From: Agarophyton chilense | Taxonomy: Eukaryota > Rhodophyta > Florideophyceae > Gracilariales > Gracilariaceae | NCBI GenBank assembly: GCA_030374765.1 | Contig: JARGXX010000008.1 | Coordinates: forward strand, 1-64,000 | Direction of reading: 5' to 3' | DNA length: 64,000 bases | In this document: positions 2,782 through 54,634 of the stretch, one piece after another | Position numbering within the stretch: the first letter of the stretch is position 1 | How the letters are laid out: every line of letters begins with the position of its first letter | The notes under the pieces: model-generated | The model's database searches: none | What the model saw: only the letters and a program-made list of their open reading frames with translations | What the model was told of the DNA's origin: nothing | Program-made: the position numbers and the translations under genes

Positions 2782-3072
2782 TTACCCGACTTGGGCACGA
2801 TCCAGATTTGGAGGCAAGGTTACCCGGGCGCGTCGGTGATAGGATAAAACCTTAGACCTCGGAAGGTGCTCAATGGGTTCCACTGTATCCTCATCAGGCG
2901 GGAATCCGTACCATCGGACTTGGTAGCGAACTTCTCCCTCGGGGGTGTAGATGTGACGCACGATGCGATCGATAACGAATTCCTGCGGGTACACTTTTCC
3001 CTGTTCGGGCTTCTCTTCCATCTTGGAACGCTCTCGTTCTCTTGAGGGTGTCAACGTAGGGTTTAGACACAC
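2782..3072 (-). CDS. Chromodomain module of Gypsy element G1
   Basis: The 96-residue frame contains a chromodomain: FVIDRIVRHI, then RYQVRWYGFPPDEDTVEPIE, then a helix around HLPRSKVLSYHRRA. The aromatic-rich core (Y, W, Y, F) and the W-x-G-F-P-x-x-x-D-T-V-E-P pattern are typical of chromovirus integrase tails, which bind methylated histone H3 and steer integration towards heterochromatin. It lies downstream of the integrase in the element's own direction, separated from the integrase frame by about 550 bases. Whether it is reached by read-through, splicing or as a separate product cannot be told from sequence alone. Confidence 0.8.
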   Translation of the reverse strand: MCLNPTLTPSRERERSKMEEKPEQGKVYPQEFVIDRIVRHIYTPEGEVRYQVRWYGFPPDEDTVEPIEHLPRSKVLSYHRRARVTLPPNLDRAQVG

Positions 3073-17236: not shown

Positions 17237-17249
17237 CTCCTCCCTTTTC
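17237..17249 (-). other. Polypurine tract of Copia Cop-A
   Basis: The minus strand reads GAAAAGGGAGGAG directly before the LTR start TATAGAAC. The polyprotein stop codon (17250-17248) overlaps its first bases, so no untranslated spacer is left between pol and the LTR. Confidence 0.85.
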
Positions 17250-20200
17250 ACCCAAAGTTTTTCTCAGAGTGTTTTGTCTCCGAGATCTTGTCAAAGTCGA
17301 AACAAAGTTTTCCAGTAAACAAAGTTAACTGAAGTGCATCAGTCAGCGCGCTGTCCTTCTTCGTCAGAGGATCAGCCAGATTAGAATGTCCAGGAACCCA
17401 AGAGATCTTATCCACAGCACCAGTCTGAAATTCGTAGCGAACACATGCAACATCACCGCGGATAGACTTGTCGATGGAATTCTTTTGTGTGGATAGTGAA
17501 GTAAAGAGATCTTTGGAGTCAACAGCCAAACGCAACTTGATTTCCTTCCCAAGTAGCTCGGTGTAGGCGTTAGAAATAGTCTTACCTTCATCAATGCCCT
17601 CAGAAGCGGCGAGGATTTCCGCAGCTGGAACACTCTTAACAGGACGCTTCGATTTGTGGGACATCCACGAGATGGCATGGTAGATGGACTGATTCTTCAT
17701 TTCACCAACCAACAAACCAGTGAGCACACCAAGTTGTCCGCATTCGTCCGTCCTGGAAGCATCAGAAAAAACCAACACGCTCAGTTCGTGCTGTCTATTA
17801 TCCGTCGGTATCGGATAAGCAATGGTTGTCCCAAGCTTCTTAAGCTTACGAACAATATTTATCTGTTCAACCAAATGACAAACCTTAAGTTCCGGTGCTT
17901 TCTGCTGCAAGTAGCTTGCATAGAATGAGCAGAATGGTGAAGCTGCAGTCCCAATCCAACCAAGCGAGCTGTTGGTTGAGGCAAACACGGATTTCTCGAT
18001 CTTGTTCAGAGATTGATCGAACTGCTTGCGACGTTGCCTAGTGAATGGATATTCTACGACTGCATCCAACTTGTCATCTGCATCCGTCTCAATTGTCATG
18101 TCACCATTTTGCACCGTGTTGATACCAAAAAACCGAAGCTTTCCTGGACCCTTCATGACATCGCCAAACTTGAAACGCTTGTCGAACTCTTTCATGAAAT
18201 GATTCACCCGATCTCCTTTTCCGGCAGCTTTCAGGTCATCAACAATTTTTGCCACAATTAACACCAATTTTCCGTTTTCTTTCTGAAAGAACAGCTGTGG
18301 CACATGCACTGATTGCGTGAGTCCAATGTCAAACATAACTTGATCAGACTGACTCTGCCATTTGGCATTTGCATTGACGAGGCCATACGCAGCTGTGAGT
18401 AGTAACCAAAGATGAGTAGCCTTCATGTGACTTTCCTTCGGAGGGCGAACATATACATCCCTCTGAGCCTCCCCGGTCTGCAGGAATGCCGCTTTTACGT
18501 CAGCTCTATAGATGTTCCATTCGTATAGAGACGCAATTGACTCAAGGATACGTAGTCCTGTGGGCGGGCACGTTGTGCAGTCTTTGCTCAAGGCATTCTT
18601 CAAGTCATCTTCATTACCATGTGGTGCTATGCGAGCTTTCAGCTTAAGCGAGCCATCATCATTGGTCTTAACCTTGTACAATGTGTGGCTGTTAATGATG
18701 TTGGCGTTAGGCGGGACTTGATTATGCGAAACAGGGCGCACAGTCTTGAGAAAAGTCTCCTCCTCCTTCTTGTAGGCGTTCACCAAGGGAAATTGGTCAA
18801 AACCCTGGGCATGATGTCTAAGGAACGGCTTGTTCCCAAAGTGATCAAGCATCGATGAGAGAACAGAAGTCTCAGTGCTTGTTACCTGTAGCTCAGGTTG
18901 CGTAGAACTAGAACTGGCCGCGAATGTCTCATTGTTGAACTTCCATACTTCGTTCGAAATATCCAAAGTTTCAGTGTCTCCGTCATCATAGTGAATGTTC
19001 AAACGTCCATCTTCCTCCTCAGAGTGAACAGTACCCGGATAGAACTGATCTTCGAGAGGCCAGAACACTGAGATGTTGTCACCGACAGATGGTTCAACGT
19101 TTGCAGACTCAGTGGAAAAATCATCATCAAGAGGTTTGATGTCTTCAGACGACGACACTGGAGTATCAGAGCCAGTTGCAGTATGTCCGGTGAGGTCAAA
19201 TGAACTCTCCTCATTCGACTCATCAATAGAGTCGATACCTTCTTGCACTAGTTGTGCAAAGCTCTCTTGAGGTAGGGCTTTACGGGTGTCCTCAAAAGCA
19301 ACTGTAACTTGTTTGCCTTTGCGTCCAGGTACAGTCACTGAGCGAGCACTGCGGTCAACGGAGAGAATTGGCTTGGCAATAGACCATTTTCCTCTCTTCT
19401 CGTGGTCTTTCTTATGATATACTTCGACCATGTCGCTGACAGCGATAGGTGGATCAGAGACCGCCTTCGAGCGCAAGATGAGCGCTAGCTTCCTGCGAGC
19501 GTGAAGTTGATCGCGAGCAGTGCGAACATCATCGGGTACAGTCGTATCAGTGGGCTTTGCCACAACGGGACATGTAAACCCTTTGGCCAGTTCGAATGCA
19601 GACATTGTGTCATTCCCGTACAAGTCATTCGAAATGGAGACAGACTTGTATGCTCCAAGCATAGGATCAAAGTCCTGTCCAGCAGCTTCTTTCAAGCGGA
19701 GAAAGACACTGCGTATGATATTGTGCTTCGACTCGATGGCATTCTTAGAGTGCCTGCCAGGAGGCACTGGCTGAACTGGAATCCCAAGGTTGTCGATGTA
19801 GTCTTTAAACACACCGACTTGAAAGGCTTTGTCTGCCCGAATAGACTCAGGATACCAGAACTGGGAAACCCAAGCTGCTTCGAATCCAACAATAGCTTCT
19901 TTGAGGTTTGTCGATGACACCGCATGAACACATGAGTACCTCGTGATTAGATCCATTAGATGCATAAGCAATATTTCATCCAAGTGCAAGTGGTCAACGC
20001 ACAGAACCTCGTTGAAATTCTTGGATAGTGAGCTGATAGATACCTTGCGGCTCGGTTGCGGAACTGCTGTTGAACGACAAGCAGAACAACGATTGACCAT
20101 TTGTGTAACATAAGATGCAACCGTGTCATTCCAAAATCCGTTTCTTTCTAGAAGAAGCTTGTAGTCGGTAAGGCTAGCATGTCCGCACACATGCTTGTGT

Positions 20201-21777
20201 ACCTTGTCAATGATTCTCTTTACCTCAGGCCATGGTTTCGAATTGACAGTTACAGCTGAAAGGCATGAAAGCACAGAGCTCTTACTGCAGCTACCAGTAA
20301 AGCGATTGAGCTCGACGTAGCTCAAAAAATCACGGTTGACGAGAGAAATAGATTCCCTTGTACCATTTGCAAGAAAGACCAGAGCATTTATTCCAATGTG
20401 CTCAATGTTGGCCTTGCTGGTCACATTCCTTCCTATGACCCACTGAGATGAACCGTCTAATACCAAATGCTTGATTTCGATCAGAGACCCTTGGTCTGAT
20501 CTGGCTGTCAAAACAATGGAGCCTAAAATGCGGCGTGCTGGACTAGCATGATCTCCTGTCCCATACTGCCAATGGGTGTGTCCATTGAGCGTGTCGGGAA
20601 TGGGCCCTAAGGTGGGGGTTGTTGGCATTCCAAGATGTTCACCCAACAGGCCAAGTTCAACTGAGCCAATTCCAGCATATGGCGCTCCATCATCAAGAAG
20701 AGGTCCTAGTTCAACAGTTGGCATATTTGTAGTAGCAGAGGAACTGCAGAGACGGTTTGTGGTCACACTATAATGTGGAGCGGCTGGAGATGTTGCCGTG
20801 CTAGACGTAACAGGCTTTAGAGTCGTTGCCATATTGAATCGAACCGTCTTTGTATGCGATTTGTCATCTGTGTCACGTCTTGAGCTTTCGTGATACCTAG
20901 ATCGCGAGGAACTCAAGCCATTGGCTCCTGATCTTTGGGGTCTGTCAAAAGACTTGCAATGTGAGGGAAGTGATCCATCAGCATTGTGGTTGCGTTTCCA
21001 ATGTCCGTACTTACCGCACAGATCACATGGATACTTCATTGTAGGAGATTGTCCCTTTTGATTGAACCGGTGTCGCTCATGACGAGTTGTACCACCAGAG
21101 CTGGCCGATAAGGTTCCATACTCTTGCGCTGGATGCGAAGTCTTGTCGCATTGCTTGATTACAGAGGCTACAGACTGATACGTGATGGCACTTAAAAACT
21201 GTTCGTTAGAAGACTGTGAATTTAGGTTTTCGTCCGACGGTGCAGCAGCAGCCATGACAGACACACGCTGAGAGTCATCAATTGCAGAATTAGACAGTAG
21301 CATCAAAGCTGTAATACATTCCGGTAGTTTAGTTGTCGTGGAAATAGAGTTGAATCTTGCAACCTGTGCAGAAAAACGAGACTCAAAATTCTTCATGGTC
21401 TCGGTATTACCACGTCTTGTATTCCAGAGTTGGTTAAAGTCACGATACGCCTCACTCACTACAGAAAGAGCGTCTTTCTGATAAATTTTGCCAACTATAA
21501 CATTGACGGCACCTTCAGTAACCAACTCAGCCTCTGAAATTCCGGAGCAGAGGTCTTTAGCACGCCCGTACAGCTGGGACTTAAGACAAATTGCTTGCAG
21601 AGTAGCTGGGATCTTGTGACTGTTTGAGGCGGGCAGTGCGTTGTGAAATGTCTGCCAAAGATTGACAGCATCACGATATTCTTCTTGATCACCTTTGCCA
21701 TCTGTCCATGGGGGGGACTTGGCATCCCAGGAGAACTTAGGCCTGGAAGGCAAATTGGAATTGGGCGCTGGGCCCAT
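17248..21777 (-). CDS. Copia Gag-Pol polyprotein with an embedded Tudor-like domain (1,509 aa)
   Basis: The start is the ATG at 21777, which lies inside the primer site; an upstream in-frame extension has no better start. Parts: gag (residues ~1-320) with a zinc-knuckle-like CDLCGKYGHWKRNH near 255; protease VLDGSSQWVIG near 450; integrase zinc finger HVCGHASL...CSACR (~545-590), core with VLCVDHLHLDE, SIRADKAFQ and NAIESKHN; a Tudor-like module at ~897-947 (VGDNISVFWPLEDQFYPGT, IHYDDGDTETLD); reverse transcriptase with RADVKAAFLQTG and VAKIVDDLKAAG (~1110-1200); RNase H with VFSDASR and WVPGHSNLADPLTK near the end. All enzymatic parts of the Copia order PR-IN-RT-RH are present in one frame. 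The Tudor-like insert is unusual. One fused frame means gag/pol ratio must be set by something other than frameshifting. Confidence 0.92.
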   Translation of the reverse strand: MGPAPNSNLPSRPKFSWDAKSPPWTDGKGDQEEYRDAVNLWQTFHNALPASNSHKIPATLQAICLKSQLYGRAKDLCSGISEAELVTEGAVNVIVGKIYQKDALSVVSEAYRDFNQLWNTRRGNTETMKNFESRFSAQVARFNSISTTTKLPECITALMLLSNSAIDDSQRVSVMAAAAPSDENLNSQSSNEQFLSAITYQSVASVIKQCDKTSHPAQEYGTLSASSGGTTRHERHRFNQKGQSPTMKYPCDLCGKYGHWKRNHNADGSLPSHCKSFDRPQRSGANGLSSSRSRYHESSRRDTDDKSHTKTVRFNMATTLKPVTSSTATSPAAPHYSVTTNRLCSSSATTNMPTVELGPLLDDGAPYAGIGSVELGLLGEHLGMPTTPTLGPIPDTLNGHTHWQYGTGDHASPARRILGSIVLTARSDQGSLIEIKHLVLDGSSQWVIGRNVTSKANIEHIGINALVFLANGTRESISLVNRDFLSYVELNRFTGSCSKSSVLSCLSAVTVNSKPWPEVKRIIDKVHKHVCGHASLTDYKLLLERNGFWNDTVASYVTQMVNRCSACRSTAVPQPSRKVSISSLSKNFNEVLCVDHLHLDEILLMHLMDLITRYSCVHAVSSTNLKEAIVGFEAAWVSQFWYPESIRADKAFQVGVFKDYIDNLGIPVQPVPPGRHSKNAIESKHNIIRSVFLRLKEAAGQDFDPMLGAYKSVSISNDLYGNDTMSAFELAKGFTCPVVAKPTDTTVPDDVRTARDQLHARRKLALILRSKAVSDPPIAVSDMVEVYHKKDHEKRGKWSIAKPILSVDRSARSVTVPGRKGKQVTVAFEDTRKALPQESFAQLVQEGIDSIDESNEESSFDLTGHTATGSDTPVSSSEDIKPLDDDFSTESANVEPSVGDNISVFWPLEDQFYPGTVHSEEEDGRLNIHYDDGDTETLDISNEVWKFNNETFAASSSSTQPELQVTSTETSVLSSMLDHFGNKPFLRHHAQGFDQFPLVNAYKKEEETFLKTVRPVSHNQVPPNANIINSHTLYKVKTNDDGSLKLKARIAPHGNEDDLKNALSKDCTTCPPTGLRILESIASLYEWNIYRADVKAAFLQTGEAQRDVYVRPPKESHMKATHLWLLLTAAYGLVNANAKWQSQSDQVMFDIGLTQSVHVPQLFFQKENGKLVLIVAKIVDDLKAAGKGDRVNHFMKEFDKRFKFGDVMKGPGKLRFFGINTVQNGDMTIETDADDKLDAVVEYPFTRQRRKQFDQSLNKIEKSVFASTNSSLGWIGTAASPFCSFYASYLQQKAPELKVCHLVEQINIVRKLKKLGTTIAYPIPTDNRQHELSVLVFSDASRTDECGQLGVLTGLLVGEMKNQSIYHAISWMSHKSKRPVKSVPAAEILAASEGIDEGKTISNAYTELLGKEIKLRLAVDSKDLFTSLSTQKNSIDKSIRGDVACVRYEFQTGAVDKISWVPGHSNLADPLTKKDSALTDALQLTLFTGKLCFDFDKISETKHSEKNFG

Positions 21778-21780
21778 AAC
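21763..21780 (-). other. Primer-binding site of Copia Cop-A, initiator tRNA-Met anticodon arm
   Basis: The plus strand GCGCTGGGCCCATAAC equals the anticodon-arm region of eukaryotic initiator tRNA-Met, so the minus-strand RNA can pair with it. This is the internal half-tRNA priming known from Drosophila copia. The polyprotein ATG (21777-21775) lies within the site. Confidence 0.8.
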
Positions 21781-22048
21781 TAGAAGAGTTATGGACACTC
21801 TACTGTTCAGTGTCGACCTTGTCGAAGAGGTAGAGCGTGCAAATTGCTAGAGTGTAGTCGATGTACACAATCTCGTGAGTACCGTGGTTTACAATTCATA
21901 ATCATGAAGGTCTAAATACACAAAGTCATAACATATAAACGGCCGTAATTAACAGCGAACATATTCATCAAACTGAATCAAAGATACAAATTCAAATACC
22001 AAGCGGGCGCATCCAAAAAGCAACCAACCAGAACCGAATAGTTCTATA
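21781..22048 (-). repeat. Right (5') LTR of Copia Cop-A
   Basis: 268 bp, apparently identical to 16969-17236. Its outer edge touches the duplication CTCTT at 22049-22053. Confidence 0.9.
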
Positions 22049-26553: not shown

Positions 26554-27001
26554 GCGTTATTACCTTTATTTCACTTGCCACAATGATGGCTAGCTTCGTG
26601 TATCTACTCATGCAACATGTAGCAGTCCATTGGGACAACTCTCGGTGGCTTTTTGTGTCTCTAGACGTCTACACCAATAGCTCTCCGAGACTGCCAATCA
26701 AACCGTAAGCTACAATCCTGGAAGCTTGTCTATTGCGGCACTGTTGCGCAACCATAGTGAAGATTCTGGGTTATCCTTGATAAACTCACAGAAGAATATG
26801 CTCGAAAAAAACCCGCCGCCAGTATAGCAGAATTATTCAAATAGCCCACCACAAACGCCTTCTGTTGTATTGTGGCCTTTCATTAACAGAGTCCAAACCT
26901 GTTTGAACATTCTACTCTTGATAGTGCCCCCCTCTTTCAGCCCACGCTTTTCATTCCAGAACGCAGCCCGTTTGCTCAGATGACGCTATGCTCGACATGG
27001 G
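26554..27001. other. Intergenic sequence upstream of the subtilase
   Basis: No coding frame, repeat or RNA recognised; the end holds the promoter of the next gene. Confidence 0.5.
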
Positions 27002-27008
27002 TATAAAA
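27002..27008 (+). promoter_or_regulatory. TATA box of the subtilase gene
   Basis: TATAAAA lies 96 bases upstream of the chosen ATG (27104). The short spacing fits a compact promoter with a short leader. Confidence 0.6.
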
Positions 27009-27103
27009 AGACACAACGATCACGATTTGCATCACCTACAACCGACACACGCTTCAAAACTCTTTCGAGCAGTCCACAAGTGATCCCGTCGCACGTATCA
27101 ATC

Positions 27104-28279
27104 ATGTCTTTCAAGCAAATTAGCGTTTTGGTTATGGTCTTCGTACTGATTGCTCCCACAAAGGCGGCAGTGATCGACGGTGAATACGTGATTCAGCTGG
27201 AGGGCACATGCAATCCAGATTGTCGTGATGCTCTTCAGCAAGCTCTAGACAATGGGCCAGATACAGCAGGCTGCTCCCTGGCCGCCACGGGCTCGCAACT
27301 CGGCGGTTTTGCGTTCGAGTTTGTATCATGTCCGACGGCGGCGGGGGTTGAGTTGGCAGTGGTATCCGGCATCGTCTTCGCCCAGAGCAGCACCGGCCAG
27401 GTACCGACGGTGCAGCTAGTGGAGCAGAACGTGGAACTGACCACGCAGGCAACATCGACGTCTCTGTGGGGCATTGACGAGACGGACGGCGGTGTCAAGA
27501 GAAACTTACTACGAAATCCGGTGCGAGACGGGCTGCGAACATGCAGCATGAGCAGCAACAACGGCGCTGGCGTCAATGTGTGGATCTTGGACACCGGCTG
27601 TACCCCCATCAACGGCGGGCTGTGCACTGGTTTCCATGGCGGCGCTAATTTGTGTGAGGACAACTATGGCCACGGTGAACATGTCGGTGGCACCGCAACC
27701 GACAGTGTTTTTGGTGTGGCCTTCGGAGCCGCGCGCAGCTGCGTCAAAGTGCTCGATGACAGCGGCGGGGGCTCTGTCATCGATGTAATCAAAGGAATTG
27801 AGTTCGTTGGAGAAAATCTCAACTTGTTCGGGAAGGGCGACGTGATTAACCTTTCGCTCGGCGGTCTTAGGTTAGAAGTACTCAACAACGCTGTAAAGGC
27901 CGTTCGGGATTTGGGCGTCTACTTTTCCATCGCAGCTGGCAATGGAAACGACAACGCTTGCAACTATTCACCAGCATCTGCCGAAGGCCCTGGAATTTTT
28001 ACAGTGCAGGCGCACACAGAGAATCTTAAGAAGGCTAGCTTTTCCAACTATGCTACGGTTCTGAACAGTTGCACCACACTCACAGCTCCTGGAGTTGACA
28101 TCGAATCCGTCAATGGTATTGCATCAGGAACCTCCATGGCTGCGCCTCATGTTGCTGGAGCATGTGCTGTTTTGCTTGCAGACGATAAAACGCCGACCAA
28201 GGCCCTCCTCACAGCTAAGAGCGTCATAATCAACCCCCTGATTGGCCTTAGACGTCGCACTTTGGGGCTCGGTTGTTAG
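27104..28279 (+). CDS. Secreted subtilisin-like serine protease (S8, proteinase K-like), 391 aa
   Basis: The ATG at 27104 starts a clear signal peptide (MSFKQISVLVMVFVLIAPTKA, cut near residue 21); the upstream in-frame GTG at 27080 would spoil it. Residues ~25-115 look like an inhibitor-I9-type propeptide (YVIQLEG start), which chaperones folding and is removed. The catalytic domain has Asp163 in ILDTGC, His193 in GHGEHVGG, oxyanion Asn280 in AAGNGN and Ser344 in SGTSMAAPHVAG, all in the proper order and spacing for proteinase K-like peptidases. The His motif reads GEHVGG where most family members have GTHVAG. Many cysteines suggest disulfides. It is probably secreted and digests protein outside the cell or in the vacuole. 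No intron is visible. It is the best-preserved host gene here. Confidence 0.92.
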   Translation: MSFKQISVLVMVFVLIAPTKAAVIDGEYVIQLEGTCNPDCRDALQQALDNGPDTAGCSLAATGSQLGGFAFEFVSCPTAAGVELAVVSGIVFAQSSTGQVPTVQLVEQNVELTTQATSTSLWGIDETDGGVKRNLLRNPVRDGLRTCSMSSNNGAGVNVWILDTGCTPINGGLCTGFHGGANLCEDNYGHGEHVGGTATDSVFGVAFGAARSCVKVLDDSGGGSVIDVIKGIEFVGENLNLFGKGDVINLSLGGLRLEVLNNAVKAVRDLGVYFSIAAGNGNDNACNYSPASAEGPGIFTVQAHTENLKKASFSNYATVLNSCTTLTAPGVDIESVNGIASGTSMAAPHVAGACAVLLADDKTPTKALLTAKSVIINPLIGLRRRTLGLGC

Positions 28280-48951: not shown

Positions 48952-49229
48952 GAACTGAAAGGTTAAAACGAATTTTTTTGTTTCTTGAAGAATTGAGTAT
49001 AAAGTATTTGTATTCTTTTTGAGTTATAAAATAATTTTTTCCCTGTTTTTTTATCTATTTTGTTTTTTGTCACGGCATGAAAAAAACTTTCGGGTTCTGC
49101 TTTACTGTTCTTCTGTAATTGAGCAAGAGTGCTATACCTCTTTCTTAGTTGCAGGTTTTTCTCACAGAGTTCTACTGTTGCAAGGGTTTTAACTGTGGAA
49201 ACTGTTGAAGACATCTCGCGAGAGGGTAG

Positions 49230-49653
49230 TGTAGAATTACTACACGCATTCTATTGTAGGTAGCTGCGTAGGTTGCACTATAATTCTAAGTAGCGAACGT
49301 TAGATACACACGAAATTGAATCTTTACTTTGAATTAGAAGGAGACGTTGAAGTAGAATGACGCTGCTTACTTGGAACGGTAGAGACCCACACCAAGCTCC
49401 CAGCCACTCTAAAAGAGCTTGGAACAAGAGAACTACTTCTCTTGTCCGAGATCATCATCATCAAAAGCTATCAACCCTCAACCAACTCTACTACAACTTC
49501 TTCATCACCGTCAACGTCGTTCTCATTCATCTTGCTCTCGCGCCGCCGTTTACGCCGTTTACATCGATTCCGCCGCACCGCCGCCGTTTACGCCGTTTAC
49601 ACCGATTCCGCCGCGTTCTACACTGCTTACAACGAATCGTCGTTTGCACAACA
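49230..49653 (+). repeat. Copia LTR (probable 3' LTR of the preceding remnant)
   Basis: It matches 62151-62508 over its whole length (about 88%), starting TGTAG and ending ACAACA. It is longer mainly because of an internal tandem duplication of ~38 bp (GCCGCCGTTTACGCCGTTTA, 49541-49578 and 49579-49616). The purine run GCGAGAGGGTAG directly upstream fits a polypurine tract. Confidence 0.75.
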
Positions 49654-50214
49654 GTTACAACCACAGACAGGGCAATCAAGTTTTCCTTATGAGAAGCAGT
49701 CGTACGTAGAGCGGAAGGGCTGTTAGTCTGGTGTCTAGTATGCACTCGCAACGCGCGGTGGAACCGAGGAAGGTAAAACGGACACAAGGTGTCCCCTCTT
49801 GCTCTTCTGTCCCCAGTGTCTCGGGGTGGAGCAAGAGTGAGGTTAAATATGCAGCGCCGGCGGCATTGTGCCAGGTGGCAACCGTGTATTGCACACCCCC
49901 GGCCTTGGCGCGATACAATAAAATTGATTTTTTGGAGTGCGGCCGAATGCTCAACAACTCCCTTTCTGACCCTAAGCACGACATTTTTTTGGCGCATCTT
50001 CCTCGCGGGCCAGTTATTTCAAAAAAATCCCCCCTGTGTGCCTTCAACGTTTTTCGAGAACCCCTCTATTCCATTATGAGAACCGCGCACGCGCCAAAAC
50101 GCCAGATTTGCGACGTCACTGCTTCCATCTAAAAGTATGAAACCTTGACGCGGAACTCGACGTGTCACCTCTCTCCGGACAGCGTGGACGACTTCTGCTC
50201 AGGTGAATCCATCT
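49654..50214. other. Sequence upstream of the H3-tail ORF
   Basis: No coding region is supported, although both strands have chance frames. Possible promoter elements are TTAAATATG at about 49842 and ACAATAAAATTG at about 49915. GC-rich start, then T-rich. Confidence 0.4.
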
Positions 50215-50751
50215 ATGGCTCGCAATAAGCAGATGGCTCGCAAATCTGTTGGCGGAAAAACCCCACGGCGCCAGCTTGCAGGCAAAGCGGCAAGAATCAC
50301 AAGCGAGACACAACTTGAACAATACCTTAATAAGAATATTGTCAAGCTTCTCTGTTCCAAACCGCAGCGCGGCGTGAGAAAAATTTACGCAATCACATTC
50401 GAGGGCAGCAATAACATCGTGCGATTTAGCGAAAACGAAGCCATTATTTTGCTCGGGCGCAGGATAGCTCATTTTATCCGGCAGTTTCGTGGCACGCAGT
50501 TCGGAGGGTTGATGCTGTTACGATTGGGTCATACAGAGGCTTTGGATGACGACGACGATCCCGATACCAGTATTGAGTATAAAGATTGGATGATCGAGAA
50601 GGCATGGTTGTCGACAGGAGGTCGTGGTAAGATTAAGGACCAATTCTATGCTCTGGAGCATGGCATTAACCAGTGTGCCCCATCGATATGCATACTTTCC
50701 GAATCGAGTACAGTCAGGCAGTTGGAGGTGCGGCGTCGAGAATTAGTGTGA
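50215..50751 (+). CDS. ORF beginning with a histone H3 N-terminal tail, 178 aa, novel
   Basis: From ATG 50215 the protein begins MARNKQMARKSVGGKTPRRQ, then LAGKAAR. Canonical H3 begins [27 protein letters not shown]. In H3 numbering R2, K4, Q5, R8, K9, S10, G12-G13, K14, P16, R17, Q19, L20, A21, K23 and R26 are kept; T3N, T6M, T11V, A15T, K18R, T22G and K27I differ. The likeness stops at residue ~26: no histone fold follows. Residues ~30-178 are an unrecognised domain with a basic helix (LGRRIAHFIRQFRG) and an acidic run (DDDDDP). An in-frame GTG 12 bases upstream is not needed. The last ~25 residues overlap another good coding segment (50673-50906), so the true C-terminus is uncertain. It is neither a histone nor any element part I know; it could be a host gene or a gene of an uncharacterised mobile element. 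Confidence 0.6.
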   Translation: MARNKQMARKSVGGKTPRRQLAGKAARITSETQLEQYLNKNIVKLLCSKPQRGVRKIYAITFEGSNNIVRFSENEAIILLGRRIAHFIRQFRGTQFGGLMLLRLGHTEALDDDDDPDTSIEYKDWMIEKAWLSTGGRGKIKDQFYALEHGINQCAPSICILSESSTVRQLEVRRRELV

Positions 50752-51559
50752 CGTATGATGGCGAAGAAGCAGAAGGAACCTTCCATTGGGGAGGTAAGGA
50801 CCGGTATGAAGCGATCAAGAGCGTTCTGGTTACTTGCAGCGCAAAGCCAGGTCAAAGGCTCACCGTGCTACAACTCGAAGCGCGGATGCCATCGTCGGGC
50901 GTCTGAAGTGTCCATCTACGTAATACGTCCGTGCAGTTTCGCGACGAGACGTTTTTGTGTTTTGAAGCTTCTTTAAGTCGTGCCTTAGCTCTCACCATTG
51001 GATCCGAGAAGGCTGCTGAGTGTTGGGCGTATCTCGCCGATCGCGTTAGGAAGAACGCAGACGATAATGAGATGTACTTGAACGCCGTTGCAGGTCTTGG
51101 GTTTGGTGATATTCTTGAGCCTGAATATTGGAACCGGAAGGCGCGAAGGGAGGATTGAGGGAAGTTTCAGGACCTCAAGGATATGCAGAGGTTTATTCGG
51201 GAAAAACAGGTGTCATTAGCCTCGACTACCTTCGCAATGGGACTGGACAATGAAAAAGATTCGCTTTGGATAACTTCCGCGATAGCGCAAACGTCTTCCT
51301 TGCCAATCTTCAGGCGATTGACGGATACATGCATGCGATTTGCATAGATGGAGAGCGCAACATGATTATTGATCCAGTGGAGAAGTATCACATGGATCCC
51401 ACGCAGGTTGCTCTCGAGTCCTGTGTTGGATCAGACCGTTCCTTCAGTCACATTGAGGACTGTCGCGTAGTGCGCTTGCTACCAGGGAAAAAGGATGTGA
51501 AACGCGCTCGTCGCGGGAAGAAACGTCATCACCTAGAAGGTTCATCAAACAGGGTTTGA
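50673..51559 (+). pseudogene. Coding-like continuation of the H3-tail gene region
   Basis: Three plus-strand segments with good codon quality follow: 50673-50906 (GTFHWGGKDRYEAIKSVLVT), 50931-51158 (EKAAECWAYLADRVRKNADD) and 51266-51559 (FLANLQAIDGYMHAICIDGE, then NMIIDPVEKYHM and a Cys-Val-Gly). The last resembles, from memory, C-terminal His...Asp modules of cysteine-protease-like proteins abundant in oomycete and other protist genomes, often with a Cys-Cys-Gly end; that likeness is weak. A basic tail (KKDVKRARRGKKRHH) could be a nuclear localisation signal. The segments lie in one orientation and probably came from one gene with the H3-tail ORF, now decayed or possibly spliced; I do not combine them. 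Confidence 0.4.
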
Positions 51560-52196
51560 AATCTTTACCATTTTAGATCCTAAGCCTTTAGGGTTCCAAG
51601 CCCCAGGATGGTGGCCCATAGTAGATATGATACTTTTCTGAGTATTCCTTGAACCATAGCTCGGTTTAAATGAGTAAAAGAATGATGATTGCCCTTTGTT
51701 AGCGCATCGGCTAAGTTGAGACTTCCCGCTATCCAACGCATGGAGGATATGTCTCCAGCTTTGAAGGAGTCACGGATGCGCGACAAGATGTGGCGCAATC
51801 GGTAGTCTCGGCATTCGTGAAGGGTGGTGATCGTTGAGTAAAAACCAAATGAGTCGACCTAAAGGACGAGCGAACCGAAATCCAATGCAAGAGCTTTCAT
51901 TCATTCCCTAAGTAGTATGGATCTGTGTGCGGATTCTGCTGCCGCAAAAATTTCAGCACCAATTGAACTAAAGGATGTACGTCCTTACTTCGCGCTATGC
52001 CAGTCGACGATGTGGTAGGAAACTTTCTCACCTTGGGAGAAGGCGATGCCACTGATGTAGCCAGTTTGACCGTAGGATGATTTTCCAGTGCTGGCGTCAG
52101 AGAACGTCACAATGTGGCCAGCGTTCATGTTATCCGATACCATCGCGGATCTCGGATCCATGTACTTCACGACCGGACGTAGCTTGAAAGACAAGG
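51560..52196 (-). mobile_element. Copia RNase H end fragment, cut by neighbours
   Basis: Minus strand: HIVTFSDASTGKSSYGQTGY (about 52100) and MRWIAGSLNLADALTKGN (about 51740), matching the RNase H of Cop-A (VFSDASR, WVPGHSNLADPLTKK). It ends abruptly at both sides: the Gypsy element D starts at 52197 and the H3-tail region ends at 51559. Old. Confidence 0.75.
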
Positions 52197-54634
52197 TTGA
52201 GGATCTGGATTGCCTGCAGAATAATAGCGGCTCCCCTCAACAAGAAGCTCCAGAAAGGTGAGCCTGAATGGTTTGAGAATCTATCGAACGAAGACATGTA
52301 CACGTTTGAGGAATTAAAACGAGCGCTGTTGTCGCCGCCAATCTTAGCGTTACCGAAAATAGTTCTACTGTACACGCTGGATACGGATGCATCCCATGCC
52401 CAAATTGGTTGTTGTCTCATGCAAAAGCATCACAACGGAGACAAATTACCTATAGGGTACTGGAGCCGCCCTATGAATGAGGCGGAGCACAACTACAAGG
52501 TAACCGAGGAGGAATTTCTAGCAGTAGTGTGGAGCATGTTGATGCTGCGTCCATACCTTTATGGTGAGCGCTTTACGTTGCGTAGGGACCACGACGCCTT
52601 AAGGTGGCTCCTCGGACTCGCAGATAAGTCCGGTAGACTTGCCCGTTTGAGGCTGAGACTGTCGGTGTTTGTATACAACGTACAGTACCGTCCAGGTATC
52701 AAGCACATCATATATGACGCTATGTCACGCTTAAACACCTCAGGTTTCGAGACAGAACCGGTGGACGATGATATCCCTTGCTTTTCGGTGTCATCAAACC
52801 AAAATGGTACCGGCGAACACCTATAAGGATGTTGGGACTTACCTGAGAAGGTGCCTTGCGGAACACCGACATGGCAACGCAGATACTGACCCTAGAGGAA
52901 ACGAACGTCATGCCCGTAACATGAGAGGAATTTCTACGAAAACAGGCCCAGGATGCGTATTTCAGAACCCTGGCTGACCAAATTGGTTTCAAAGGATTAC
53001 CATTCGGTGTGGACCACAATGGGTACATCGTGACAAGGTCAACCTTGGATGTTAACCTCCACAAGGTGGTTCCGAAGGCACTGCGCCCGAGAGTCTTGTA
53101 TCTCGCGCACTACCAGAGAGTATTGGGACACCCCGGTGCCACCAGGATGCATTACACCTTGAGGCAACGGTTCTATTGGCCTCATATGGCCCATGATGTC
53201 TATAGATTTGTAGGTCAATGCCAATCTTGTGTTCGTACCCGCGGTGGTATTCGAATGCATCGAAAGTACCTCAAGCTGTTCCCAGCAGCGGGTCCACTGG
53301 AGTTTGTTGCGATAGACCTTCTAGAACCACTTTCCAAAACCAAGAATGGGTATCAGCACATTCTAGTGATCACCAACAGGTTCTCGAAGCTCACGAGAGC
53401 GATGCCTTTAAAGGAGACGAATTCAACCACGCTAGCGATCGCGTTCCACAAAAATTGGGTCTCCCCGTATGGTGCACCACTGTACCTACTTACCGAAAAT
53501 GGTTCAAACTTGGCATCGAAGTTCTTCGAAGCAGTCTGTAACCTCTTGGGTATCAAGCACTATTTCACTACTGCCTACCACCCGCAGACGAAGGGACAGG
53601 TCGAGCGCTTTAACCACACATATGTATCAAGGCTAGGACACTATACGGAAGAGCACCAAACTTGTTGGGATGAGCTGGTGCAACCACTCACCTACTCCTA
53701 TAACCTTCAGGTACTCCGGTCAACGCAGACCACTCTCTTTGGTTTGGTTCTTTCGCGACACCCCCCAGTTATTGTAGTGCAGGGAGATCATACCACCAGC
53801 ACTGCAGCTGGCGCACTGACCCCTGCCCAAGTCAAGCGGAATACCCTTGTGAGGTTCAGGAGGGCTCTCAAACATGCAGAGAGCCCACTCACTGCAGCCC
53901 AAAAGCGGTACAAGGCCGACTACGACCGTAGGGTAACCAAAGTGGTCTCTGTATGTTCGGGACAATATGTCTACATAGACAACCCACCTTCAGGTAAAAG
54001 ACCACGACCGGGTGATGAAGCAGACGATGACGCTATTGACAGAGATATCGATTCGAAACTTCTACCCCAATCAGTGACACCTTATAAGGTATTGAACGCA
54101 TCAGACCACACCGTTACGGTTGACCAAGATAGAATACCGAATACGATATCAATTGACTGTATTAAGGTAGCACCTGAAACGGTTCAACATCGCATGGAGG
54201 CGGGCACCTCAGCCCGAGAGCCGAGAGCGGTAGCTCTGCGCACTTGACCCTCGGAGGACCCCACCCCAATTGAGGTGAATGATGAACTACAACGGGATGA
54301 TCCCGATTACAACCCTCTAACAAAGACGGAAATGGAACCTCACACGGTAACAGCGGGAGCTCCCGACCCGGCTCCCACAAACGAAGCTCCCAACTCGCAA
54401 CACATGAACCATCGAGGTGGCGTTCCCCCGAAAGATCAGGACCAAACCGCAGAGGAATTTCCCGTTGACCCTCTTGTGAGCCACACGCGAACCTAAAATG
54501 GTCTGAAGTACACAGTCAGGCGGTACGGCTGGGGCCCAGAAGGATACACTTTCGAACCCCCAGCCGCAATACCCCCACACTTCCGTATCAGGTATCGGCG
54601 CCGTCGCAAGGAGCCGATGCCTGCAGACGGCTAA
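52197..54634 (+). mobile_element. Gypsy chromovirus D (RNase H, integrase, chromodomain), 5' part absent
   Basis: Plus-strand parts: RNase H (DTDASHAQIGCCLMQ at about 52382, YWSRPMNEAEHNYKVTEEEF, end at about 52730); integrase zinc finger (LYLAHYQRVLGHPG...CQSCVR, 53095-53240); core (FVAIDLLEPL about 53305, LLTENGSNLASKFF about 53488, YHPQTKGQVERFNH about 53577); tail to 54247 and beyond; chromodomain-like end (54506-54631). It is the nearest relative of G1 in the window. Gag, protease and most of the reverse transcriptase are missing. A purine tract AGGAAGGGGGAGAACAGA follows at 54663-54680. Broken in a few places. Confidence 0.85.
54506..54634 (+). CDS. Chromodomain-like end of Gypsy D, short
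   Basis: KYTVRRYGWGPEGYTFEPPA followed by HFRIRYRRRRKEP parallels the G1 chromodomain (RYQVRWYGFPPDEDTVEPIE, then YHRRA). It ends in TAA (54632-54634) about 30 bases before the purine tract. Confidence 0.6.
   Translation, partial: KYTVRRYGWGPEGYTFEPPAAIPPHFRIRYRRRRKEPMPADG

Follow-up and report, generated by a model that had tools for sequence, protein, structure and literature searches.

The open reading frame (ORF) of 178 amino acids at 50215-50751 (+), in the stretch of 64,000 nucleotides of Agarophyton chilense DNA that we analysed (the window), is the 5' portion of a disrupted accessory gene, which lies antisense in a Ty1/copia LTR retrotransposon of this red alga. The encoded protein begins with an imitation of positions 1-28 of the histone H3 tail, and purifying selection acted on both the tail and the gene during the active period of the elements. 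From the conserved residues and from the literature on inhibitory H3 tails, we tentatively propose that this selected mimic may serve as an anti-silencing decoy, with PRC2 as its likeliest target, a reading to which we give somewhat less than an even chance.

The H3-like tail and the broken gene

The ORF starts with MARNKQMARKSVGGKTPRRQLAGKAARIT. When its residues 1-30 were searched against PDB sequences they matched histone H3 tails (best E 2.1e-5), and in a fixed register 20 of the 28 residues encoded at 50218..50301 (+) were identical to H3 positions 1-28, which is 9.5 s.d. above shuffles of the same residues. The Pfam scan of the 178-aa ORF gave no family at E ≤ 1, hence no match to the histone fold, and the ORFs of five relatives had no Pfam match above the cut-off. 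The preliminary description, made from the letters alone, had reported a near-complete H3 tail at the true N-terminus of a non-histone protein, and these results bear it out. Its list of kept tail residues ended with R26, which is indeed present, but the next residue, K27, is replaced by isoleucine (codon ATC, 50296-50298). Residues N3 and M6 are departures of the window copy, as T3 and T6 are each found in 22 of the 27 copies compared below.

The ORF and its tail are present as first described, but the extent of the ORF is not that of the gene. From about residue 150 the ORF is out of frame: residues 150-177 are encoded in another frame by other copies, and the accessory gene's own frame resumes at 50673-51553, with further breaks (tblastn). 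The whole gene has around 450 codons (a protein of around 450 aa) and can be followed over 50215..51553 (+) by tblastn matches in successive frames and by open pieces. Three in-frame TGA stops interrupt it, and the frame shifts near 50670 and again between 51146 and 51209. None of the 15 copies that we examined for ORFs was open over the whole accessory gene. The C-terminal part of the gene (51254..51553, +) also occurs in accessory genes from other families, both copia and gypsy, as it matches both the L017 protein and a gypsy-family protein, and it holds the His and Asp of a Cys-His-Asp pattern (see below). Between the LTR and the start codon lies a leader (49896..50214, +) that is common to the copies, in which 200 bp were found to be without codon pattern, and which would hold any antisense promoter.

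The gene belongs to a Ty1/copia element

The window copy of the element is truncated and spans 49688..52221 (-), with 89-90% DNA identity over 2.5 kb to two other copies (c14 and c06). Its LTR, the 3' LTR, lies at 49688..49895 (-); these 208 bp match both ends of c14 and c06, and the match at the right end of a third copy, c20, is 209 bp long. The repeat edge at 49688, 527 bp before the start codon, is common to many copies in pairwise comparisons. To the right of the accessory gene lies the decayed 3' end of the copia polyprotein (51554..52221, -), which we read by eye as the RNase H region because it aligns to copies that read RNase H-like on the minus strand. The cut end at 52221 is adjoined or overlapped by a 5'-truncated Ty3/gypsy element (52188..54247, +; RT_RNaseH 3.7e-29, Integrase_H2C2 2.1e-17, rve 9.7e-11).

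Three complete copies measure 6,960-7,036 bp between the outer LTR ends. All three carry LTRs of 208-216 bp at both ends, with within-copy identities of 94.8, 91.8 and 79.2%, and the 5-bp target-site duplication is exact in one of them and conserved in 4/5 bases in the other two. The right LTR is adjoined by CTGGGCCCATAAC, exact in two of the three complete copies, and the same letters occur around the CAT anticodon in all three tRNA-Met genes of the genome. Copia elements take their primer site from the anticodon arm of the initiator tRNA-Met, and we take CTGGGCCCATAAC to be the primer site expected of them. By eye, the minus-strand ORFs to the right of the accessory gene resemble a gag that has a zinc knuckle, and the protease, integrase, reverse transcriptase, and RNase H of a retrotransposon. 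Among these, Pfam identified a copia-type reverse transcriptase (RVT_2, E 5.3e-24) in the relative copy L049, in a part absent from the window copy, while no integrase or protease model matched the pieces read by eye as such. Since the pol-type ORFs are on the minus strand, the element runs leftward in the window, with the H3-tail gene antisense to it between pol and the 3' LTR. The suggestion in the preliminary description that the ORF might be an element's own chromatin-mimic factor is thus supported, as the gene belongs to a repeated Ty1/copia element.

Two further observations concern these copies. The piece of L049 read as integrase (L049:925-2256, -) had a weak match to Tudor_FRX1 (E 8.5e-4), below the cut-off of that model. 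Just outside the LTR of the window copy, the stretch at around 49203-49687 is also present at copy L005, and both elements may therefore have inserted into older repeats of one kind.

The earlier mention of chromodomains in several neighbouring elements holds in part. There is at least one in the window (2833-2979, -; E 5e-7, in a 120-codon frame, with many genome matches of the same frame length), but none was found in the seven retroelement ORFs of the window that we scanned, five at E ≤ 0.001 and two at E ≤ 0.01. A copia polyprotein elsewhere in the window (17248-21846, -), open over 1,532 codons, has a Tudor_3 match (E 4.8e-6) before its reverse transcriptase, which is another link to chromatin readers. 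The window also encodes a subtilase-like ORF at 26984-28279 (+; Peptidase_S8, E 1.5e-21), which may be a host gene surrounded by retroelements.

Conservation and selection across copies

We searched the alga's own genome, a 79.8-Mb assembly in which the window is on contig C8. The window protein had 90 matches, three of them at true H3 tails. A 35-residue query restricted to the tail matched 44 places at E ≤ 10, i.e., the three true H3 tails and 41 others, of which two had E above 0.1 and five were near-identical duplicates. The preliminary description had asked whether homologues would also start with an H3 tail and sit in repeats; in this own-genome search they do both.

For comparison we kept 27 copies, corresponding to 30 loci minus three (L019, L021, and L022) that are near-identical to L020. 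The in-register score against H3 was between z 6.1 and 10.0 in 26 of the 27, the exception being L018 (z 2.4), and several copies had 20-21 identities out of 28, with z about 9-10. The majority residue is that of H3 at 22 of the 28 positions (all except 11, 15, 18, 22, 27, and 28), and the six consecutive residues A-R-T-K-Q-T are found in the majority of copies. The modifiable lysines are well represented: K4 in 24/27 copies, K9 in 21/26, and K14 in 19/26. L003 is truncated and its placement in the tree of copies is unreliable. One copy, L071 with L077 and L078 (C128:813300-818300), is more diverged; it has T11 as in H3, an alanine at position 27, and other sequence downstream.

Substitution patterns among the 27 copies show that the protein was selected. 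The pooled dN/dS of the gene was 0.495 in the coding frame, against 1.02 and 1.05 in the shifted frames. The tail alone gave 0.55, against 1.14 and 0.97 in the shifted frames, and the 200 bp of the leader used as a control gave 0.86-1.19 in the three frames. Residues 30-153 were more constrained (0.39) than the tail. When pairs were grouped in four bins of rising dS, the median dN/dS decreased from 0.73 to 0.58, 0.47, and 0.43 (14, 31, 42, and 189 of 276 pairs), although the pairs are non-independent and 75 of the 351 are missing from the whole-gene median because they had too few codons or were saturated. This fall of dN/dS with distance points to selection during the activity of the elements, followed by decay after insertion.

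Position 27 and the possible targets of the tail

Lysine was never found at position 27. The 26 readable copies have I (20), V (3), M (1), G (1), or D (1) at this position, so that a hydrophobic residue (I, V or M) is found in 24 of them. The preceding residue is R in 18 of 27 copies and K in 6 of 27. Copies in which R26 is followed by I or M have the feature of PRC2 inhibitors of the K27M type. Previous work showed that PRC2 is inhibited by H3 in which residue 27 is M or I, that EZHIP acts in the same way and tolerates I, and that PRC2 prefers R at -1 (PMC6061380, PMC6513997). In another red alga, Cyanidioschyzon merolae, H3K27me3 covers 172 repetitive elements, i.e., 50% of them, and is associated with low expression (PMC5405695). 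The host genome encodes two genes with SET and CXC domains (E(z)-like) and has two VEFS-Box matches (Su(z)12-like). In the same genome we counted nine chlorophyll-binding matches and thirteen phycobilisome-linker matches. The one chlorophyll-binding match that was compared with PDB came closest to a chain of the red-algal entry 7y5e (E 6.9e-60). Seven of the linker matches are on contig C39, and the other six are on contigs of 0.9-5 Mb, which exceed the size of a plastid genome. These genes point to a red alga as host and speak against an oomycete; a search for elicitins gave no match, which carries little weight as its controls had none either.

The decoy reading is based on the lack of K27, on the literature on K27M/I and EZHIP, on the host E(z)- and Su(z)12-like genes, and on H3K27me3 on repeats. 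Removal of the initiator Met would leave a free fake tail, which would be presented to the host enzymes and readers of the H3 tail. The R26-I27 pair, like K27M or K27I tails and EZHIP in the active site of EZH2, might then block methylation of H3K27. With PRC2 jammed, or with the readers of K4, K9, and K14 occupied, the chromatin of the element would stay open. A further activity would come from the remainder of the protein, the C-terminal part of which is common to several copia and gypsy families. Among the candidate targets, we rank host silencing enzymes first. Several observations count against a decoy aimed at PRC2: residues 30-153 are under stronger constraint than the tail, R26 is present in just 18 of the 27 copies, and position 27 is where the resemblance to H3 ends. 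The breaks found in all 15 copies examined for ORFs count against it as well, as does the one related transcript-derived protein (P0001, of the gypsy family, see below), which starts at residue 26 and so lacks the tail. Moreover, nine readable copies of a gypsy family described below (excluding L070, whose tail is unreadable) have V (7), M (1), or L (1) at the equivalent position, and no lysine. Since this family is barely H3-like and nevertheless hydrophobic at 27, the residue may be structural.

K4, K9, and K14 fit other H3 readers as targets equally well. The tail could thus be bound or modified through A1-R2-T3-K4, K9, S10, and K14 by PHD, chromodomain, Tudor or SET proteins, and would either tether the accessory protein or an integration complex to chromatin or titrate H3 readers, without being specific to PRC2. 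The frequent conservation of the three lysines is consistent with such a bait, as are the abundance of chromodomains in the genome (a lower bound, since 150 of 1,935 candidates were scored) and the Tudor_3 match of the window copia polyprotein. Yet, it leaves the missing K27 unexplained, and on balance we consider it possible but rather unlikely. A more specific form of the decoy reading is that of a retrotransposon "oncohistone", in which an antisense protein with a K27I H3 tail would poison PRC2, the complex whose mark covers red-algal repeats. The protein would then be a natural counterpart of EZHIP, made by a transposon and used against silencing. Under this form, the N-termini of the copia and gypsy relatives would have drifted from H3 or would be moving toward it. 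It seems to us unlikely in this full form.

Related accessory proteins in copia and gypsy elements

A second family encodes a protein of 424 aa, with an intact frame in the C4 copy used as query and in a C92 copy that is 97% identical to it. The protein is 25% identical to an H3-tail-family protein from residues 2 to 318 (E 6.7e-11), and its gene is antisense to a gypsy polyprotein (RT_RNaseH 5.9e-27, rve 1e-9). Gene and polyprotein are at L033:1397-2668 (+) and L033:2897-4501 (-), and also in L034, with 471-codon frames on C4 and C92. Five places, L036, L037, and L038 together with places on C88 and C77, have in common an in-frame internal deletion of the gypsy-family gene that leaves frames of 276 codons; this shortened, derived version has therefore spread. 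We rejected splicing as the explanation of a 212-bp gap in the gypsy relative L039, because the gap lacks GT-AG ends where the alignment breaks and has the appearance of a deletion.

The gypsy-family protein has a basic N-terminus that resembles H3 weakly; in five copies, 5-9 of 28 residues were identical, with z 2.5-3.9. This would suit an explanation in which the basic stretch serves nuclear localisation or nucleic-acid binding and resembles H3 by chance or convergence, devoid of H3-specific function. We regard this explanation as improbable for the copia family, where 20-21 of 28 residues agree in register with z about 9-10 and A-R-T-K-Q-T is present in the majority of copies. Basic composition alone is insufficient to produce these scores because the shuffles preserve composition.

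Further families share mainly the C-terminal part. The accessory genes of L042 and L044 are antisense to a copia reverse transcriptase (Pfam). Two others were assigned with no Pfam match for either, L058 to copia by eye and L057 to gypsy because the ORF next to it resembles the corresponding ORF in the 424-aa family. Because related accessory proteins sit antisense on both types of element, a single lineage of accessory genes seems to have moved between elements of the copia and gypsy types.

Searches with single sequences in a large protein collection found no homologue at E ≤ 1. A profile of seven sequences, searched in the same collection at E ≤ 0.1, found a single protein, P0001, derived from a transcript of ambiguous strand. 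It is identical to the gypsy-family protein at 392 of 399 residues and begins at residue 26 of that protein, i.e., without the tail. We found no paper on its accession in the literature searched. The seven aligned proteins show a Cys-His-Asp pattern, with the Cys in register in 5, the His in 6, and the Asp in all 6 that reach it. We considered a papain-like cysteine peptidase, but the relatives scanned had no Pfam or PDB sequence match, and with it no recognised peptidase domain, and in the H3-tail family the three residues are of no more than average conservation (percentiles 0.52, 0.25, and 0.39 for Cys, His, and Asp). We therefore kept the pattern as a motif only.

Origin of the tail

At the DNA level the tails of five copies and those of three host H3 genes are identical at 52-57 of 84 bases. 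For the residues shared with H3, 5-11 of 20-22 codons are equal to those of a host H3 gene, and the host H3 genes have 13-16 of 28 codons equal among themselves. The preliminary description had offered as alternatives a histone exon captured by a host gene and the chance joining of a truncated H3 copy. If an H3 exon of the host had recently been captured, by the element or by a host gene, or a truncated H3 had been joined by accident, this would account for the gapless alignment of the tail to host H3. We nevertheless find such an event very improbable, because the silent codons mostly differ from those of host H3, the DNA identity is low, and the tail is conserved as protein, under selection, in diverged copies; recent capture was accordingly rejected. 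The tail may instead derive from an old capture of H3 or from gradual convergence. Still less credible is a regulatory role of the antisense RNA (e.g., through small RNAs) with an incidental ORF, which is one proposal for plant antisense ORFs in PMC7264820: dN/dS is well below 1 in the coding frame alone, which argues against a function of the RNA only.

Relation to known systems and meaning

Histone mimicry has precedents. Short ARKS-like H3 mimics are found in viral and host proteins, e.g., influenza NS1; they too imitate a motif of the H3 tail, but they are short and do not form a near-complete N-terminal tail. The accessory protein and EZHIP or the H3K27M/I oncohistones have in common an H3-like peptide with R before a hydrophobic residue at the place of K27 (PMC6513997, PMC6061380). 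EZHIP differs in being a host protein that mimics only the surroundings of K27 and uses M (PMC6513997), whereas the algal mimic spans H3 1-28, is N-terminal and retrotransposon-encoded, and has mostly I; its inhibition of PRC2 is putative. Accessory genes directed against host control have been proposed before, as in orchid Ty3/gypsy elements with an added AlkB RNA-demethylase ORF, which encodes an RNA demethylase domain and not a histone-tail mimic (PMC9289625).

The position of the gene also has a precedent. Antisense ORFs between pol and the 3' LTR (aORF-3R) were described in the plant elements Grande, RIRE2, Retand, and PvRetro13, with function unknown (PMC7264820). They have the same place and orientation, occur in many copies and are protein-coding. 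They differ in that they are without clear protein similarity, and the word "histone" occurs 0 times in the text of that paper; the red-algal gene starts with an H3 tail and has relatives in copia as well as gypsy elements. Among the papers listed in our literature searches, judged by titles and abstract openings, none dealt with a retrotransposon-encoded H3-tail mimic; as few subscription papers were covered, this is weak evidence of absence. Hence, an antisense ORF at this place is already known, and the H3-tail N-terminus on one of them appears to be new.

A selected H3-tail mimic gives such antisense ORFs a concrete candidate function, namely interference with silencing that acts on the H3 tail. 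PRC2 silencing would be the likely target because H3K27me3 covers half of the repeats of C. merolae (PMC5405695). If so, the accessory gene would show that a near-complete mimic of a histone tail can be maintained by a selfish element.
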